Position numbers and translations under genes: made by a program
The notes under the pieces: model-generated
The model's database searches: none
Told to the model about the DNA's origin: nothing
What the model saw: only the letters and a program-made list of their open reading frames with translations
Shown here: positions 37,239-55,008 of the stretch, piece after piece
How the letters are laid out: each line of letters begins with the position of its first letter
How positions within the stretch are numbered: the first letter of the stretch is position 1
Assembly: GCA_029098305.1 (NCBI GenBank)
Contig: JAQXOB010000045.1
Location: forward strand, 1-64,000
DNA: 64,000 nt
Reading direction: 5' to 3'
DNA from: Clostridia bacterium
Lineage (GTDB): Bacteria; Bacillota; Clostridia; Oscillospirales; Acutalibacteraceae

Positions 37239-40202
37239 TTATGGATTTGCTTTTTCTAAATTGTCAATAGCATCATTAAGCTGATTATATGCATATTCCA
37301 GTTCATCTATCTGTGCATATTCATCATCATATATGGCTATGGCATCACGATATGCATCTGTAAAGTTTAAAAATGAATCTGCCGTGTAATATCCATCGTC
37401 ATTGTTATAAAAGCTGTCTTTAAATTTCTCAATATTATCAAGAAGCTTTTTTATTTTTTGTTTTAGTTCCTCAATGCTCTCTAAATCGTCTTCGTTGCCT
37501 TCATTTTCAATAAATTCACCGGCATCAAACATATCAATAAGATCGGCTATGTATTTTTGTATGTCTGTTACATCTACAAGGTTTATTTCCAAATCTCCGT
37601 TTACATCTGCTGCCGATAGCTGAAGATCATCAAGTTCTATTAAACATGCGATGTACTTTTGCAAACTTGTAACATCAGACATAGTGACGCTTCCATCAAG
37701 ATCCACATCGCCTACAAATATTTGTTTTTTATCAGTGTCAGTTGATATAGGTGGGTTGCCGTTTCTTTTTATGTAGCAGGCACTTGAACCTGTGCGAAGC
37801 TGATATGTGTTTTCATAAATCGAGAATACACAGTAAATATCAACTATATCTCCAGCTTTTATATCCGAAGAATATTCTTCGGCATTGTATATATTTATTG
37901 AACCTGTGCTATCACTGATAGATGTATATCCATCAGAGATATGTTCACCAAGCGTAACATTTCTTATAACTATGAGTTCATTTAGATAGTCGTCTGCCTT
38001 TGATGAGCGTAATCGCGAAATAGTAACCTCTTGTGCAGGCATTATTTCACATTCTTCTAAAGGCTCAACCTTTTCTATTTCTTTTATCTCACGAAGTCCT
38101 TTATAATTAGTGATTTTTCCACTAACTATAACTACCTGACCGTCATCATATTTATCCAGAAGTCCACTATCATCAACTAGCAACAATCCATGAGCTTCTC
38201 CATTTATTTCATCTTCGATGATAATATAATTCTTTTCACCGCCGGACTTTGAAGAATACTTATGGGTTATTTGTCCAATTACATCTACTACATCGCCGTC
38301 TTGGATACCCATAGCGTCCTCTATGGTAAAAATACCATCAGGTACCATATTTGTCGGAATAGGATCAAGATTATCATTATAATCCTTTATATTCAGTGTG
38401 CAGTTAGATGAAAAGTTGCCATCCTCTGAAACAACGGTTATAGTCGTAGTGCCAGGCTTTAATGCGATGATGCGACCTGCCTGTGATATTATGGCAATGC
38501 TTTCATCAGCAGATGCCCAACGCACTTTTTTGTTTGTTGTATTTTCAGGAGTAAATTTAACTGTGAGAACTGCTGAGTTTCCCTGCGATAAGGTAAGATA
38601 ATCTTTGTTAAGCTCAATTTTTCTCGCTTTAATATTCATATCAAAGCTTTCGCCTATCATGAGATGAGATGTAAAAGCCTTTATTCTGAAATTAATGCCG
38701 TCATCTTTTGCCACGTTTACCCAATTGTTCATATTAGTGCTAAAAAAGCTTTGGTTAGATATTGCAGTATTTGTAAAGCTTATCCAGCTAAGCGAACTTT
38801 CAGTTTTATCGCATGGCAGAATTACTCTTTCTGAGGCATTGTCTTTAAAAAGTCTAACTACTACAGAAAAGCGTTGACCTTTTGTGAGTTGAATACTCTC
38901 CGGTAAAGGGATAGTATGTATACCGGCATATTTTTTTGTGCCTTTTAAAGGTGTGGGTAACGCTCTTTTACCAGATAAAGGGTCTGTACGAGATTGCAAA
39001 TCAGTGTAAATTTCAACAGAATAGTTTACATTCGGATCATATGTCACGAAGGAAACAGCATTAAGGTAATCATTATACTGTGATGTGAAGATATTAGACA
39101 TATATCCACCGCCGGTAAATCCACCATTGATAGGATCAGTTCCATCAGAATAGTTTGAGGTTGGATTGCTGGTGCCATCATATTGATAATTATAGTCATA
39201 TTGATTTACAGATGAAAACTCAAGAAAACAAGCATCATCCTCTAAAAGTGACGCATCCTCGTATGATAGCCATATATAACCATAACTACCAAATCCCTCA
39301 CCCCAACTATTTTTTACCAGCCATGCACCATTATTTTTTGGCTTTGAGAGCGGAAAATTTTCTTTGCTGTAAGAGTCGTTCCATCCTACTATGCACGCCT
39401 CGTGGTTGGCAGATTGTGTTTTGCCGGAGGTTGGTATGTAACAATATCCGCTTGTAACGCTGGATAAGTATTCTTCGTCAAAGTAAAAGCCGATCATGGC
39501 AGAGCCATATTTTAGTATAAGCTGTTTAATATCGTTTTTGTCTTTTGTAGAAACAAAATAAGCGTTTTTTAGTAATGCTTCATTTATGCCATAAGCTTTT
39601 TTATTATCTAAAACGTTGAATCCGGAATATGCATTTTGAAAAGAAAATTCACTGTGCTTTTTCTCATCTACTACACCGGTCCATCTTGCAAGTGAAAGAG
39701 CAGAGATATAGTGCATGCCACCGGATGAAAGAAAATCAGTGGATGGAGAAGTGTAATCACCCTCAAGTAGTCCGAGCTTGTCATAAGCATTGTTATTTAA
39801 ATAGTAAGCCAAATGAAGCTCAGATAAATCAATATCATTGATATCAAAATCATTTAACTTTATCAGGCTTGATTCTGCAGTGCTCATCGCAGAAAAAGCC
39901 CAGCAGGTGTTTGTTTCTCCTTGATCTTTTACCGATGTAATAAAGGGTTTATCCTCCAGACGAGGGTCATAATAAGCAGGAATAGTTAAATAGTTCTGAC
40001 TTTTGCCCACGCTATCCACGGAGAAATCAATATCCATATATCCACTTTCGGATGGCTTGCTTATATCAAATGAATGAACCACTCCGCTTGCACTAGTGCT
40101 GTGTGCCGAAGCATTATATGCAGGGATTATAGAAGCACATATAATTGTTGATAGGACTACTATGGAAATCATTCTATGAGAAAACTTTGAAATAGTTTTC
40201 AT
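37239..40202 (-). CDS. secreted papain-like cysteine protease with BIG2, OB, dockerin and FIVAR-like modules
   Basis: A 987-aa exported protein. Signal peptide at residues 1-33. Papain (C1) domain about 75-340 with the oxyanion Gln in VKDQGETNTCWAFSA (Q94), Cys100, His267 (ANHEACIVGWND) and Asn298 (VKNSWGEGFGSYGY). A beta-rich region follows to about 520, then a BIG2-like domain (about 525-610; SADESIAIISQAGRIIALKPGTTTITVVS), two OB-fold-like modules (about 620-820), a dockerin (830-893) with two canonical Ca loops (DVDLDGSVTMSD; DVNGDLEINLVD), and a C-terminal FIVAR-like helical domain. Probably a scaffold-anchored protease. RBS AGGAGATG; promoter at 40238. Confidence 0.9.
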   Translation of the reverse strand: MKTISKFSHRMISIVVLSTIICASIIPAYNASAHSTSASGVVHSFDISKPSESGYMDIDFSVDSVGKSQNYLTIPAYYDPRLEDKPFITSVKDQGETNTCWAFSAMSTAESSLIKLNDFDINDIDLSELHLAYYLNNNAYDKLGLLEGDYTSPSTDFLSSGGMHYISALSLARWTGVVDEKKHSEFSFQNAYSGFNVLDNKKAYGINEALLKNAYFVSTKDKNDIKQLILKYGSAMIGFYFDEEYLSSVTSGYCYIPTSGKTQSANHEACIVGWNDSYSKENFPLSKPKNNGAWLVKNSWGEGFGSYGYIWLSYEDASLLEDDACFLEFSSVNQYDYNYQYDGTSNPTSNYSDGTDPINGGFTGGGYMSNIFTSQYNDYLNAVSFVTYDPNVNYSVEIYTDLQSRTDPLSGKRALPTPLKGTKKYAGIHTIPLPESIQLTKGQRFSVVVRLFKDNASERVILPCDKTESSLSWISFTNTAISNQSFFSTNMNNWVNVAKDDGINFRIKAFTSHLMIGESFDMNIKARKIELNKDYLTLSQGNSAVLTVKFTPENTTNKKVRWASADESIAIISQAGRIIALKPGTTTITVVSEDGNFSSNCTLNIKDYNDNLDPIPTNMVPDGIFTIEDAMGIQDGDVVDVIGQITHKYSSKSGGEKNYIIIEDEINGEAHGLLLVDDSGLLDKYDDGQVVIVSGKITNYKGLREIKEIEKVEPLEECEIMPAQEVTISRLRSSKADDYLNELIVIRNVTLGEHISDGYTSISDSTGSINIYNAEEYSSDIKAGDIVDIYCVFSIYENTYQLRTGSSACYIKRNGNPPISTDTDKKQIFVGDVDLDGSVTMSDVTSLQKYIACLIELDDLQLSAADVNGDLEINLVDVTDIQKYIADLIDMFDAGEFIENEGNEDDLESIEELKQKIKKLLDNIEKFKDSFYNNDDGYYTADSFLNFTDAYRDAIAIYDDEYAQIDELEYAYNQLNDAIDNLEKANP

Positions 40203-46358: not shown

Positions 46359-46400
46359 AAAAAATGAGTAGGGGCTAATTTGTAGCTCCTACTCATTTTT
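46359..46400. terminator. terminator after the YgjV/GNAT gene
   Basis: AAAAATGAGTAGGGGCTA and TAGCTCCTACTCATTTTT form a long stem with one G-T-like mismatch, symmetrical enough to work on both strands, between rny and the minus-strand gene. The gene's stop codon overlaps its edge. Confidence 0.7.
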
Positions 46401-47008
46401 TATATCTCTTTTATAAAGTTGTTTCCATCCTGCACAAAGCCCATTGATTTGAGATAGCTCTTGTGGCCCTCATCTTCTGTCTGTGCAATCAGCTTGTTAA
46501 AGCCTAGGCTCTTTAGTTTTTTGTATAAGAATTTTCCGACACGACAATCTCGATATTCTGGTGTTGCATAGTCAAGATCAACACGCATGGTTCCATCACC
46601 GTTGTTTTTTCCCATAATTAGTCCTGCTGCAGTCAGATTGCAATATACAAAGATAGCTGTGTTAGAATCAGTTTCACCTAATGTAAAGTTTGAAAAATGT
46701 TTTTGAATATCTCTGCCGTTGAACATAACAAAGCTTTTCAAAAATTCATTGTCCACTCTGCAATAATGAGCAGAAAAAATTTCTTCACGTTTTTTCATTT
46801 TTATTAGGTAATAAATATTAATTGCCACTAAGCCAATGTTTAATATAGCAGTCGGATAAGATTTTATTGCCAGTGCATACACTGCAAAAATCAGTGCACC
46901 TATAGTGTTCACCCATCTTAGCTTTACTACAGATGACATGATGAAAGAAACGAATACGATAACGGATGCTAAATAACCTATATATTCCCAAATTTGTTCT
47001 ATTGTCAT
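46400..47008 (-). CDS. YgjV-like membrane domain fused to a GNAT-like acetyltransferase domain
   Basis: A 202-aa protein. Residues 1-70 are a small membrane domain of three hydrophobic segments (IWEYIGYLASVIVFVSFIMSSVVKLRWVNTIGALIFAVYALAIKSYPTAILNIGLVAINIYYLIKM) of the YgjV/Imp-YgjV type. Residues about 85-202 resemble a GNAT fold: NTAIFVYCNLTAAGLIMG, VDLDYATPEYRDCRVGKFLYKKLKSLGFNKLIAQTEDEGHKSYLKSMGFV. The motif-A pyrophosphate loop (RDCRVGKFL) is recognisable. A fused membrane-bound acetyltransferase is inferred; substrate unknown. AAGGAG lies before the ATG. Confidence 0.75.
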   Translation of the reverse strand: MTIEQIWEYIGYLASVIVFVSFIMSSVVKLRWVNTIGALIFAVYALAIKSYPTAILNIGLVAINIYYLIKMKKREEIFSAHYCRVDNEFLKSFVMFNGRDIQKHFSNFTLGETDSNTAIFVYCNLTAAGLIMGKNNGDGTMRVDLDYATPEYRDCRVGKFLYKKLKSLGFNKLIAQTEDEGHKSYLKSMGFVQDGNNFIKEI

Positions 47009-47024
47009 AATTAAATACTCCTTT

Positions 47025-47168
47025 TTATTTGTTAGAATTTTGTTTTTTTATTACTTTCATTCTCGTGAATTCTTCACGATCTTTTTCTTCCAAAGATTCG
47101 GTGATACTGCTTATTTGTGACTCGAATTTTGGAATTATAATATTTTGAAGAGCATTTGCTCTTTTTTT
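47025..47168 (-). pseudogene. 3' fragment of a V-type ATPase subunit D gene
   Basis: Not in the ORF track in this frame. Reading the minus strand gives KKRANALQNIIIPKFESQISSITESLEEKDREEFTRMKVIKK then a stop. This is the conserved C-terminal region of V/A-type ATP synthase subunit D (consensus near RRxNALExIxIPxxxETIKYIxxxLEExDREEFxRLKxxKK). The N-terminal three quarters are absent. It begins right after the truncated subunit C piece, so the middle of the operon is missing. Confidence 0.85.
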
Positions 47169-47191
47169 TGTGATTTTTTTGCATAGGTAAC

Positions 47192-47272
47192 GAAAGTTTT
47201 TTCTGAAAGTCTGTTACCATACATTGTGCGTGCCTTTGCCGAAACAGCATTAGAAGCATGATTAAACATCAT
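47192..47272 (-). pseudogene. 5' fragment of a V-type ATPase subunit C gene
   Basis: On the minus strand, from an ATG at 47272, the frame reads MMFNHASNAVSAKARTMYGNRLSEKTF, the N terminus of V-type ATP synthase subunit C (typically ...ANAVxSAKARAMYGxRLT...). The homology ends after about 27 codons, where the sequence joins the subunit D tail. The ATGA overlap with the stop of the preceding fragment retains the operon-type junction. Confidence 0.75.
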
Positions 47273-47608
47273 TCTTTTGCACCTCTGAGGTCACCTGAAA
47301 GCGAGAATATCACATCAAATATAATAGGGTCAGTCCATATATCAATGTTTTTATCTCTGGCATTATCCAAGCGTTGCTCTGCGTCGGATACTTTTTGGAG
47401 CGAATTTGTCGTTTTGCGTTCTTCATCTCTACTATACATTTCTTCAAGCTTTTCTAGTTCTCCTTGGGCAGATTCAGATACTCACAGCGTAACTTATCTT
47501 TTTTGATATTACGGTGTAGGAAACTTTATCATTCTCTTTTTCTGCTTTGCTCACAATATCTCTGGCTTTATCATCAGCATCAATTATCCTTTTAAAAATG
47601 TCATCCAA
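47269..47608 (-). pseudogene. frameshifted V-type ATPase coiled-coil (G/H-like) subunit gene
   Basis: On the minus strand, from a TTG at 47608 with AAAGGAGG eight bases upstream, the frame reads LDDIFKRIIDADDKARDIVSKAEKENDKVSYTVI; it then needs one shift to read KKDKLRCEYL and a second to read ESAQGELEKLEEMYSRDEERKTTNSLQKVSDAEQRLDNARDKNIDIWTDPIIFDVIFSL up to TGA. Joined, these resemble the small coiled-coil peripheral-stalk subunit that starts V-ATPase operons in Clostridia. The two frameshifts make it non-functional. The homology call for such a coiled coil is less certain than for subunits C and D. Confidence 0.7.
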
Positions 47609-47757
47609 AAGGTGATCCTCCTTTCACTTGTCTTAAAGAGAACAAATATATATTATGAACTCTTTTCTTTTCAAAGTCAATGATTTGAGAAATTAAAATA
47701 GAAAATACTCTTATAAAATTTTTCGTAAATTTTTTATAAAGTTTTTTGAAAAAAGTG

Positions 47758-47786
47758 TTGACAAATGAAATTTCAAGTGGTATTAT
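47758..47786 (+). promoter_or_regulatory. sigma-A promoter of rplJ-rplL
   Basis: TTGACA, a 17-base spacer and TATTAT, just upstream of the L10 leader. Confidence 0.8.
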
Positions 47787-47794
47787 ATTGAAGC

Positions 47795-47945
47795 TGTAAT
47801 TCTAAAGACAGCAGGTGCACCCGCATAAAGGACAAAATAGTCCGCCTGCCGAGGAATACGGATTATATGATTTTGATTATAATTCTGTCTTCCTGCGCGT
47901 GTGGGAAGGCATTTTTTTATTCCCGGTGCACTCATCTCACTAATT
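47795..47945 (+). ncRNA. L10 leader RNA
   Basis: It contains AGACAGCAGGTGCACCCGC, then CGCCTGCCGAGGAATACGG, matching the L10-binding kink-turn region of the ribosomal L10 leader, and later a hairpin near GGGAAGG...TTTTTTTATTCCC that may act as an attenuator. It lies between the promoter and rplJ. L10-L12 binding to this leader represses the operon in other Firmicutes. Confidence 0.8.
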
Positions 47946-51330: not shown

Positions 51331-52770
51331 ATGAAAAAGACATTCAAGAGACTTATTTCTTGTGCAATGGCTACATTGATGGTAGCTTCCATGGCTTCTA
51401 TCAGTGCCTTTGCAGACGAAGAGCCAGCTTTTAAAGTTGGTGATGCTGTTTACATCAGCTATGGCGCAAAAGATGCTGATGATAATGCTCTTTTAAGAGC
51501 ATTCTATGGTTTCGATTTTGAAGTTGCTGCTTTTGAAGAAGGCGTTGCTACTGTAACACGTGACTTCGGAAGAGAAGACCTTGAAGCTGTAGGCGTAAAT
51601 ACAGCAAAATACGACGAAGCACTCGACGTAGTTGAAAGCGTATTAGGTGAGGGTGCAAAAGTTACTGTTAGCCTAGATGTTAACGAGGAAGACCTTTCAA
51701 ATGATTTGAGCGTTGCACACAATCCATATCCAGCAGATGAAGATGCTAAGGATATCGAGGTTGGTTCATTAGTTGCAATCAAATATGATTCAAAAGATGC
51801 TAATGATGCAGAAATTGCAAAGTTTAAGAGCTTTATTGACTTCACAGTTGACGAAATCAACGAAGATGTTGCTTCAATAAGCGCAAAGCTTGATGCTAAA
51901 GATTTTATGGATAGCGTTAAAGGTTATATCACAGGCGAAGGTGTTGCAGATAATCTTGTAACATTACTTAGCGGTGTATCATCAGATCTTCTTGTTAGAG
52001 ATTATAAGATGGATGTTAAGCTTGACAGACTTGTATGTCTCGAAGAGAAAGAGCTCACAGATGACGACTGGAGAACATTACAGTCATACGTTCCAGTATC
52101 TTTCAACGATACTGATATGCTCGTAGAGTTCGTAGTAGAAGTTTCTGAAGATGAAGAGAAGACAGAGTCTGTAAAAGAGCTTGCTATCTATTACAATCAG
52201 GAAGAGCAAGTTGAGTTTGGCAGAGTTGAGCTTCCAGAGGCACTATTAGACGTTGAATATTCAAAAGAGAATATGACAGTTGCAGTTGAAGAAGACGGCA
52301 CAGTTGTAATGACAGTTCCTTACAAGGATGCTGACGGCAAAGAGTATGCTTATGTATATGTTTTGACAGAGGATAAGTTTGTTCTTGAGTCAGATGGTAA
52401 GCTTAGTGCTGGCGATGCAAACGCTGACGGCAAAGTAAACATGGAAGACGTTGTAGACCTCCAGAAGCACATTGCAAACCTCATCACAATCGAGGGTGAT
52501 GCTTTCGTTGCAGCTGACGTTTACGCTGATGGTCATCTCAGAATGCTCGACGTTACAACACTTCAGAAGTATATTGCAATGCTCATCGACACTCTACCTG
52601 TAGAGCCAGTTGAGGAGACTGACACAGATTCAACAACAGATACTGAAGAGGCAGGCACAGATACAGAAGAAGGTACTGACACAGAGGAAGGCACAGACAC
52701 AGAAGAAGGTACTGACACAGAGCCAGGTACAGATACAGAACCAAGCACAGATTCTGAAGGCGAAGAATAA
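51331..52770 (+). CDS. secreted dockerin protein with an acidic TDTEEG tail
   Basis: A 479-aa exported protein. Signal peptide 1-28 (ending ASISAFA). Two similar acidic beta-rich stretches each begin with (V)GDAVYISYGAKDADDNALL / GSLVAIKYDSKDANDAEIA, suggesting an internal duplication over about residues 34-210; a further region runs to 350. Dockerin about 358-419: first Ca loop DANADGKVNMED is canonical, the second, DVYADGHLRMLD, has Tyr at the third position. Residues 427-479 are a TDTEEGTDTE repeat with pure Thr/Asp/Glu/Gly. No catalytic domain is recognised; a structural or adaptor role is inferred. Confidence 0.85.
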   Translation: MKKTFKRLISCAMATLMVASMASISAFADEEPAFKVGDAVYISYGAKDADDNALLRAFYGFDFEVAAFEEGVATVTRDFGREDLEAVGVNTAKYDEALDVVESVLGEGAKVTVSLDVNEEDLSNDLSVAHNPYPADEDAKDIEVGSLVAIKYDSKDANDAEIAKFKSFIDFTVDEINEDVASISAKLDAKDFMDSVKGYITGEGVADNLVTLLSGVSSDLLVRDYKMDVKLDRLVCLEEKELTDDDWRTLQSYVPVSFNDTDMLVEFVVEVSEDEEKTESVKELAIYYNQEEQVEFGRVELPEALLDVEYSKENMTVAVEEDGTVVMTVPYKDADGKEYAYVYVLTEDKFVLESDGKLSAGDANADGKVNMEDVVDLQKHIANLITIEGDAFVAADVYADGHLRMLDVTTLQKYIAMLIDTLPVEPVEETDTDSTTDTEEAGTDTEEGTDTEEGTDTEEGTDTEPGTDTEPSTDSEGEE

Positions 52771-52881: not shown

Positions 52882-52929
52882 TTTTCTTGTCTTATGACCT
52901 AATTTATATAAATCGTGGAGGTTTTAAAA

Positions 52930-55008
52930 ATGAAATCGATTAAAAGATTGTTGTGCGTTGTGCTTTCTATTACAATGTTAGCATCGATGGCAACAGCGAT
53001 TGCATCTGAATCTGATGCCAAAGCACTATCTCTTGGTGATGTTGATGGTGATACATATATATCAATGAGAGATGTTGTTGAAATACAACGCTATGTGGCT
53101 GATCTCACAGACTTATCTGATGATCAAAAAAAGGCTGCTGATGTGGATGAACCATATGAAAATGTAAATATGTTGGATGTTGTTACAATACAAAAATACA
53201 TAGCCCAGCTTATTTCTGAGTTTCCTGCAGAATCAAGAGAATTTAATGATTCCGAGAATGATATACAGCATGATACAGATATAAGTTCTTCAAGTGATAT
53301 CATTGATACTTCAACAGATACTTTAGATACATCAAGTGATACTGAATTTGATACTACAGTTGATGTTGTTTCTATAAAAGATGTTCTCTCAGCAAGCGTT
53401 GGTGCTAATCTTACCACAAGAGGTCAGGTGTGCTATGTCTATGATGGCAACACTGTAATCATAGAAGAAGTTGAGGAAGATGGCACTGTCAATGGTTTGA
53501 TGATTTTTGACAAAGAAGGAATCGCAGGCGGTTTCTATGAGTTAAACAGCATTGTTGAAGTTACAGGTACAACAAAGTTATATAATGGAAGCAACGAGTT
53601 AACAGATATATCTTCTATAGCTATTATGTCAAAACAGAATAAACCTATAGCTCCTGTTGAGTCAACCGTATCAGAATTGAAGGAGCATATAAATACTGTT
53701 GCTGTAATCAAAAACTGTAAGCTAGGTGCATATGATTCCAATAGTTCTAATGTTACTGATGCTACAGGTACAGTTGTATCATACAAGCCAGCTATGTATC
53801 CGGATGGTGTAACAGAAGGTTCTGCAGTTGATCTTGTGTGCTTGCCAACAATGTATAAGGATGCAGTTCAAATCCGTGTAGCAGATAAGAGCAACTATAT
53901 GCCTTTGGGTAGCTTCGTTGATACAGATTCTGAAACAGCATCAGAAACAGATACCTCCACATCAACAGATACAAACACAAGTCCAATCGAAATTACAGGC
54001 AACAGAGTTGTTTTTGGAGAGCCAATTACATCTCTTGATAAGATTGTAAATAGACCGGTTGCAATAACAATCAGCAATGAGGCACTAAGTGCAGCCGAAC
54101 CAAACTCTTCATACGCCGGCGCACTTGATATAAAAACTGTTGAAGGAAAGCTTACAGCAAGCAGTGATTGTGTCTATATAATTGAACATGTAGCAGGTTC
54201 ATATCTTTTAAAGAGCCATGCTACCGGTAAATATCTCACAAACAATGTTAAGACAGAATCTGTGTTCTCATCTGAGATTACAGAAGCTGCATATATGTCA
54301 ATTACTTTTGCATCAGATTTATTCGAAATCTCATCAATAAATCAGGAGAGAGAGCTTGCACTCTTTATTGGAGAGAACAAAAATTCTTTCCGTTGGTATG
54401 TGTCAACAGCACAGACATCGCTTTCACGTGATGTTAAAATATATCCTATCGTTTCTTCATATAATGAGGAAATAGACACATCCACAGACACCGCAACAGA
54501 TACAACATCTGATACATCGACAGACACATCCGGTGCAATTAATGCCAATCAAAAAGTTTATCTCACTAATAATGCAACTTCTGTGGACCAGATAATCGGC
54601 AAAAAAGTTGTTCTGACTATCAAAAACTGTGCAGTAATCGGCGAGCTATCAGGCAACAATGGAGTCGCAAGAGATATCGAATCAGACGAAGATGGAATGT
54701 ATGTAGATGGAAAGGCTGTATTTACGGTTGTTTTTGAGAATGATTCTTATTACCTCTATAATGAAGTAAGCAAAAAATATTATGGATATAAGGGCAATAA
54801 TTCTTATACATCACTGTATAATTCTATTTGTAATGATGCTATGCTAAATATCACATATAATTCAAGCAATTCATCATTTTTAATTTCCAGTGTGGTGAAC
54901 ACTCATGAATTGTCATTTTTCTCTTCTACGGGCAATTCATTTAGATGGTACGAGCCAAATGCGTTCACAGATCGCTCACGTGATGTTGTGATATACCTTG
55001 TTGACTAA
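52930..55008 (+). CDS. secreted N-terminal-dockerin protein with OB pair and two tandem novel modules
   Basis: A 692-aa exported protein. Signal peptide 1-25; dockerin 35-98 (first Ca loop DVDGDTYISMRD normal, second DVDEPYENVNMLD carries an extra residue and lacks the usual Asp). A TDT-rich linker leads to a pair of OB-like domains (about 145-320). Two more TDT linkers separate two homologous modules of about 155 residues each (about 350-505 and 535-692), ending FRWYVSTAQTSLSRDVKIYPI and FRWYEPNAFTDRSRDVVIYLV. No enzyme signature. The track GTG start (52915) overlaps GGAGG; ATG 52930 is preferred. Confidence 0.85.
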   Translation: MKSIKRLLCVVLSITMLASMATAIASESDAKALSLGDVDGDTYISMRDVVEIQRYVADLTDLSDDQKKAADVDEPYENVNMLDVVTIQKYIAQLISEFPAESREFNDSENDIQHDTDISSSSDIIDTSTDTLDTSSDTEFDTTVDVVSIKDVLSASVGANLTTRGQVCYVYDGNTVIIEEVEEDGTVNGLMIFDKEGIAGGFYELNSIVEVTGTTKLYNGSNELTDISSIAIMSKQNKPIAPVESTVSELKEHINTVAVIKNCKLGAYDSNSSNVTDATGTVVSYKPAMYPDGVTEGSAVDLVCLPTMYKDAVQIRVADKSNYMPLGSFVDTDSETASETDTSTSTDTNTSPIEITGNRVVFGEPITSLDKIVNRPVAITISNEALSAAEPNSSYAGALDIKTVEGKLTASSDCVYIIEHVAGSYLLKSHATGKYLTNNVKTESVFSSEITEAAYMSITFASDLFEISSINQERELALFIGENKNSFRWYVSTAQTSLSRDVKIYPIVSSYNEEIDTSTDTATDTTSDTSTDTSGAINANQKVYLTNNATSVDQIIGKKVVLTIKNCAVIGELSGNNGVARDIESDEDGMYVDGKAVFTVVFENDSYYLYNEVSKKYYGYKGNNSYTSLYNSICNDAMLNITYNSSNSSFLISSVVNTHELSFFSSTGNSFRWYEPNAFTDRSRDVVIYLVD

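Follow-up and report, generated by a model that had tools for sequence, protein, structure and literature searches.

The window analysed here is a stretch of 64,000 nucleotides from the genome of a Clostridia bacterium. This genome is referred to as G000 hereafter, and two related species of the same genus are referred to as G001 and G002. On the minus strand of the window, at 47611-47025, three collinear remnants of V-ATPase genes were found: a peripheral-stalk subunit, then subunit C, then subunit D. They lie on one strand in the order that an earlier note on this DNA had given. The features in and around this region are as follows.

46400 to 47008, minus strand: intact YgjV-GNAT two-domain gene, directly after the D remnant (72.5% identity; domain search)
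47025 to 47180, minus strand: V-ATPase subunit D (second type), C-terminal part of about 50 codons with the stop codon (PF01813; BLAST)
47178 to 47182, minus strand: junction of the deletion, C(34):D(128), within A-rich sequence (alignment; comparison with G002)
47181 to 47272, minus strand: V-ATPase subunit C, N-terminal part of about 34 codons (BLAST; frameshift-aware alignment)
47269 to 47479, minus strand: 3′ part of the stalk subunit in another frame (ORF list; alignment reaching G002 stalk residue 133)
47480 to 47611, minus strand: 5′ part of the decayed stalk subunit, G/H-like (ORF list; BLAST E = 2e-4 against the G002 stalk; frameshift-aware alignment)
47652 to 47680, minus strand: promoter-like site upstream of the remnant, TTGACT-17-CATAAT, agreeing with the consensus at 10 of 12 positions

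A frameshift-aware alignment to the G002 proteins places a frameshift within the stalk remnant at about 47476-47479. This remnant aligns to residues 26-133 of its relative, which has 133 residues when read from an upstream start, and it is therefore essentially full length. At 47272-47269, the stop codon of the stalk remnant (TGA) and the ATG of C overlap, so that the ATGA overlap described as intact in the earlier note is real. The C piece aligns to residues 7-28. An A run near 47196 then shifts its frame, and the alignment goes on beyond it to about residue 34: the last 7 or so C codons are masked by this frame change. The D piece gives an uninterrupted alignment to residues 128-176 of subunit D. 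The C and D fragments had been identified correctly and their lengths slightly underestimated: the former had been given as 27 residues and reaches about residue 34, and the latter had been given as 40 residues and comprises the last 49-51 or so. The ORF list had been said to hold only shadow frames here, but the small ORFs do appear in a mechanically made ORF list.

In the same alignment, the scores against the G002 proteins were 112 for the stalk, 106 for C and 168 for D, while the maxima for shuffled proteins (12 shuffles of each protein) were 51-54. Chance matching of short pieces is ruled out by these controls, and the reading of the first piece as a frameshifted stalk subunit holds. The D tail was also recognized as Pfam ATP-synt_D (PF01813), with E = 9.6e-14 in a search of its own genome and E = 1.8e-14 when searched alone; it scores 51.7 bits against a cut-off of 25.7. 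Residues homologous to stalk, C and D are therefore present in operon order. The open frames are broken at the locus, neither intact A or B genes nor intact membrane subunit genes were found there, and the catalytic genes of the type to which the remnant belongs (the second type, described below) are absent from the genome. The locus is not a functional V/A-ATPase operon.

An intact operon of this type exists in G002 (contig C5; public contig JAILOG010000019.1), where nine ATPase genes stand in the order stalk-C-I-K-F-E-A-B-D. In G001, parts of this operon are found in the same order, as fragments on short contigs (JAEEHZ010000079.1). Within the family, the order C-I-K-F-E-A-B-D recurs in three further genera, in one of which (L061) subunit E fell below the cut-off in the gene-order comparison. 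The earlier note had held that the pieces follow operon order, with A, B and everything between C and D gone, and the intact same-order operon in the congeners bears this out. It had also named, as evidence against its reading, a same-order operon with no overlap in these residues; the congener's operon overlaps the remnant exactly there. Besides these operons, G001 carries a third subunit D fragment, which is of the first type and lies at a contig end (contig C54; L011 1-224), which suggests that this assembly mixes strains.

G000 itself retains a complete V-ATPase operon of another type on contig C24, with the order stalk-I-K-E-C-F-A-B-D; the earlier note had proposed a search for a V-ATPase elsewhere in the genome, and this first-type operon is what it yields. 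The best BLAST match of the C piece was the second-type C of G002 (86% over 22 residues, E = 1e-14), and it gave no BLAST match to the first-type C. The D piece showed 67% identity to the second-type D of G002 (E = 3e-27) versus 37% to the first-type D (E = 9e-5). Because C has no match to the first-type C and D shows this difference, the remnant does not derive from the operon on contig C24; by these comparisons, the C and D pieces are derivatives of the second-type operon.

In G000, the genes for A, B and intact C each occur exactly once, on contig C24, and no further copy of any of the three was found in this assembly, which is rated 99.62% complete. In each of G001 and G002, both A and B are present in two copies, one of the B genes of G001 being divided between two contigs. 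The numbers of subunit C genes are in line with this. F-ATPase alpha or beta was found in none of G000, G001 and G002. The retained K of G000 can be aligned over its length to the Na+ rotor subunit NtpK of Enterococcus hirae; the TQ, Q and E residues of the Na+ site are conserved in it. In the second operon of G002, K is a single hairpin similar to Thermus K; it carries a glutamate at the position of the one in Thermus K and has no counterpart of the Gln of E. hirae NtpK. The likeness to the E. hirae rotor (PDB 2bl2) concerns the retained operon of G000, not the remnant. The lost pump was perhaps of the H+ type and the retained pump of the Na+ type, as judged for the former from the G002 sequence only, since the corresponding K of G000 is gone.

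The surroundings of the remnant provide a further link. In G001 and G002, the YgjV-GNAT gene comes directly after the second-type D, and in the window it has kept this place beside the remnant. Among 300 genomes of the family, the YgjV-GNAT protein was matched over nearly its full length in only three (G000, G001 and G002), and in a fourth the YgjV-like match was no more than partial. As a neighbour, this gene independently supports the origin of the remnant from the second operon. The encoded protein has a YgjV membrane domain, and its C-terminal stretch weakly matches GNAT acetyltransferases, below the Pfam cut-off.

The outer flanks differ: the block lies beside HIT-apt-comEC-holA in G002 and between rny and rplJ in the window. 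In addition to the deletion, a rearrangement must therefore have moved the block in one lineage, a point that counts against the pseudogene reading. The earlier note had suggested looking for an intact operon beside rplJ in relatives; no V-ATPase adjoins rplJ in G002, whose intact copy adjoins HIT-apt-comEC, and the HIT-apt-comEC block of G000 contains no V-ATPase. Synteny via rplJ was dropped as positional proof for this reason, and the YgjV-GNAT gene was taken as the link instead. Upstream of rplJ, a Ribosomal protein L10 leader was found at 47784-47926 on the plus strand (RF00557, 59.9 bits); nothing else in the window matched Rfam at the gathering threshold.

In comparison with G002, 8,025 bp between C codon 34 and D codon 128 are missing. 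This number is divisible by 3, and beyond the A run at 47196, C and D are read in a single frame across the junction. No long repeat joining C to D was found. A deletion joining C to D, together with small frameshifts, accounts for everything at the locus, as the earlier note had proposed for one deletion followed by frameshifts. We consider it highly probable that a single deletion of about 8.0 kb and small indels destroyed a second V/A-ATPase operon, presumably of the H+ type, of which the remnant is the pseudogene. Homology and gene order have been shown, and so have the absence of the other genes and the linkage to the intact gene downstream; the species is represented by one genome, in which an assembly error at the junction or at the indels is conceivable. 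The simplest course of events is as follows. One deletion of about 8.0 kb joined codon 34 or so of C to codon 128 or so of D within the A-rich stretch, removing the larger part of C and of D and, between them, I, K, F, E, A and B. Its initial product was an in-frame C-D stub, and later small indels broke the stalk gene and the C part; we infer that the deletion preceded these frameshifts. The loss was presumably tolerated because the Na+-type V-ATPase remains, and the remnant probably yields no functional product. The first reading of the locus is confirmed as an observation and supported as an interpretation, and two points were absent from it: the lost operon is the second of two V-ATPases, and the intact copy of the relatives lies elsewhere. 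The locus is a clear and well-supported operon pseudogene, and the process is the ordinary decay of a redundant operon.

The D tail carries information on the time of the loss. Among 40 comparable D codons, 27 differ from those of G002 (16 silent and 11 non-silent), counts that are dominated by divergence predating the loss. Without constraint, about 4 silent changes were expected, and 16 were reached in none of 4,000 simulations. The changes being mostly silent, most of the divergence arose while D was functional and under selection. The collapse is probably recent: mostly silent change fits a recent loss without dating it. Between G000 and G002, the D tail of the remnant shows 67% identity, while the first-type D tail shows 100%. 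Accelerated decay of the D tail was nevertheless dropped as proof, since the changes are mostly silent and second-type D tails diverge similarly between genera (mean 69% identity).

Several other explanations should be considered. The species may have an intact second operon that was collapsed or misjoined by the assembler or lost in binning. The window does come from a 50-contig assembly, its relatives in the public collection are metagenome-assembled genomes, and both the junction and one or more of the frameshifts fall in A runs. However, the nearly complete assembly contains no additional copy of A, B or C, the stalk frameshift lies outside any long homopolymer, and the remnant is located deep within the contig, flanked by normal genes and with no long C-D repeat. 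Such an artefact is very unlikely. We hold it to be equally improbable that the remnant is still productive, either through slippage on the A6 run near 47196 yielding a C-D fusion of about 80 residues, or as a transcript serving only as a leader for the YgjV-GNAT gene. The upstream promoter-like site is retained, the C and D parts share a frame after the A run, most changes in the D tail are silent, and the YgjV-GNAT gene is intact. On the other hand, there are two separate frameshifts, the D frame has no start codon and the catalytic and membrane subunits are all gone; divergence before the deletion predicts mostly silent change equally well. The promoter-like site is a weak match on its own, in a region rich in chance matches (14 such sites found versus 8.2 expected). 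A more specific version, in which the stub is expressed by slippage on the A run and the short C-D fusion docks on and modulates the remaining V-ATPase, appears less probable still. Least probable of all, to the point of being negligible, is a derivation from the first-type operon by duplication of that on contig C24, with no separate second type: the D tail does match the first-type D, but BLAST comparison with both operon types refutes this origin, the C fragment having no first-type match and D being far closer to the second type, and the gene order and the YgjV-GNAT neighbour fit the second operon only.

The pseudogene reading can be placed in the context of the family. A second-type D query gave matches in 208 of 300 family genomes: about 160 had a strong match (E below about 1e-42) and 48, G000 among them, had only a weak match (E above about 1e-22), where these two numbers are our own count of the listed best E-values, uncorrected for genome incompleteness. 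Several genera mix species with and without a second-type D. Absence of the second operon looks scattered within genera, as if it had been dropped repeatedly. A scan of named genomes for further relatives returned only G001 and G002 again. In sum, the operon of these two species shares with the remnant its gene order, the stalk, C and D residues and the adjacent YgjV-GNAT gene; it differs in that the G002 operon is intact beside HIT-apt-comEC, whereas the G000 remnant has the ends only, beside rplJ.

A literature search for this specific loss found no report. Loss of this kind is already known, as ATPase-module losses have been described in Acholeplasmataceae, together with paired dissimilar V-ATPase operons of inferred H+ and Na+ types (PMC4221730). 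Acholeplasma oculi resembles the present case in that one genome carries two V-ATPase operons of low mutual identity, the ion type was inferred from NtpK and relatives lost ATPase modules; it differs in that the lineage is distant and F-type ATPases are also present, and the sections of that report drawn on here describe no half-deleted operon (PMC4221730).

The remnant presents a whole rotary ATPase caught in the act of being lost, and a multi-gene machine can be lost by one deletion between its two end genes. The family data suggest that two V-ATPases differing in rotor type are common among its members and that one of the two has been lost repeatedly. If this is true, they offer a usable natural experiment on which ion these bacteria depend on. 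Elsewhere in the window, secreted proteins with dockerin-like repeats were recognized by eye at 37239-40202 (minus strand), 51331-52770 (plus strand) and 52915-55008 (plus strand). One of them resembles a papain-type peptidase, and these proteins suggest a cellulosome-like system.
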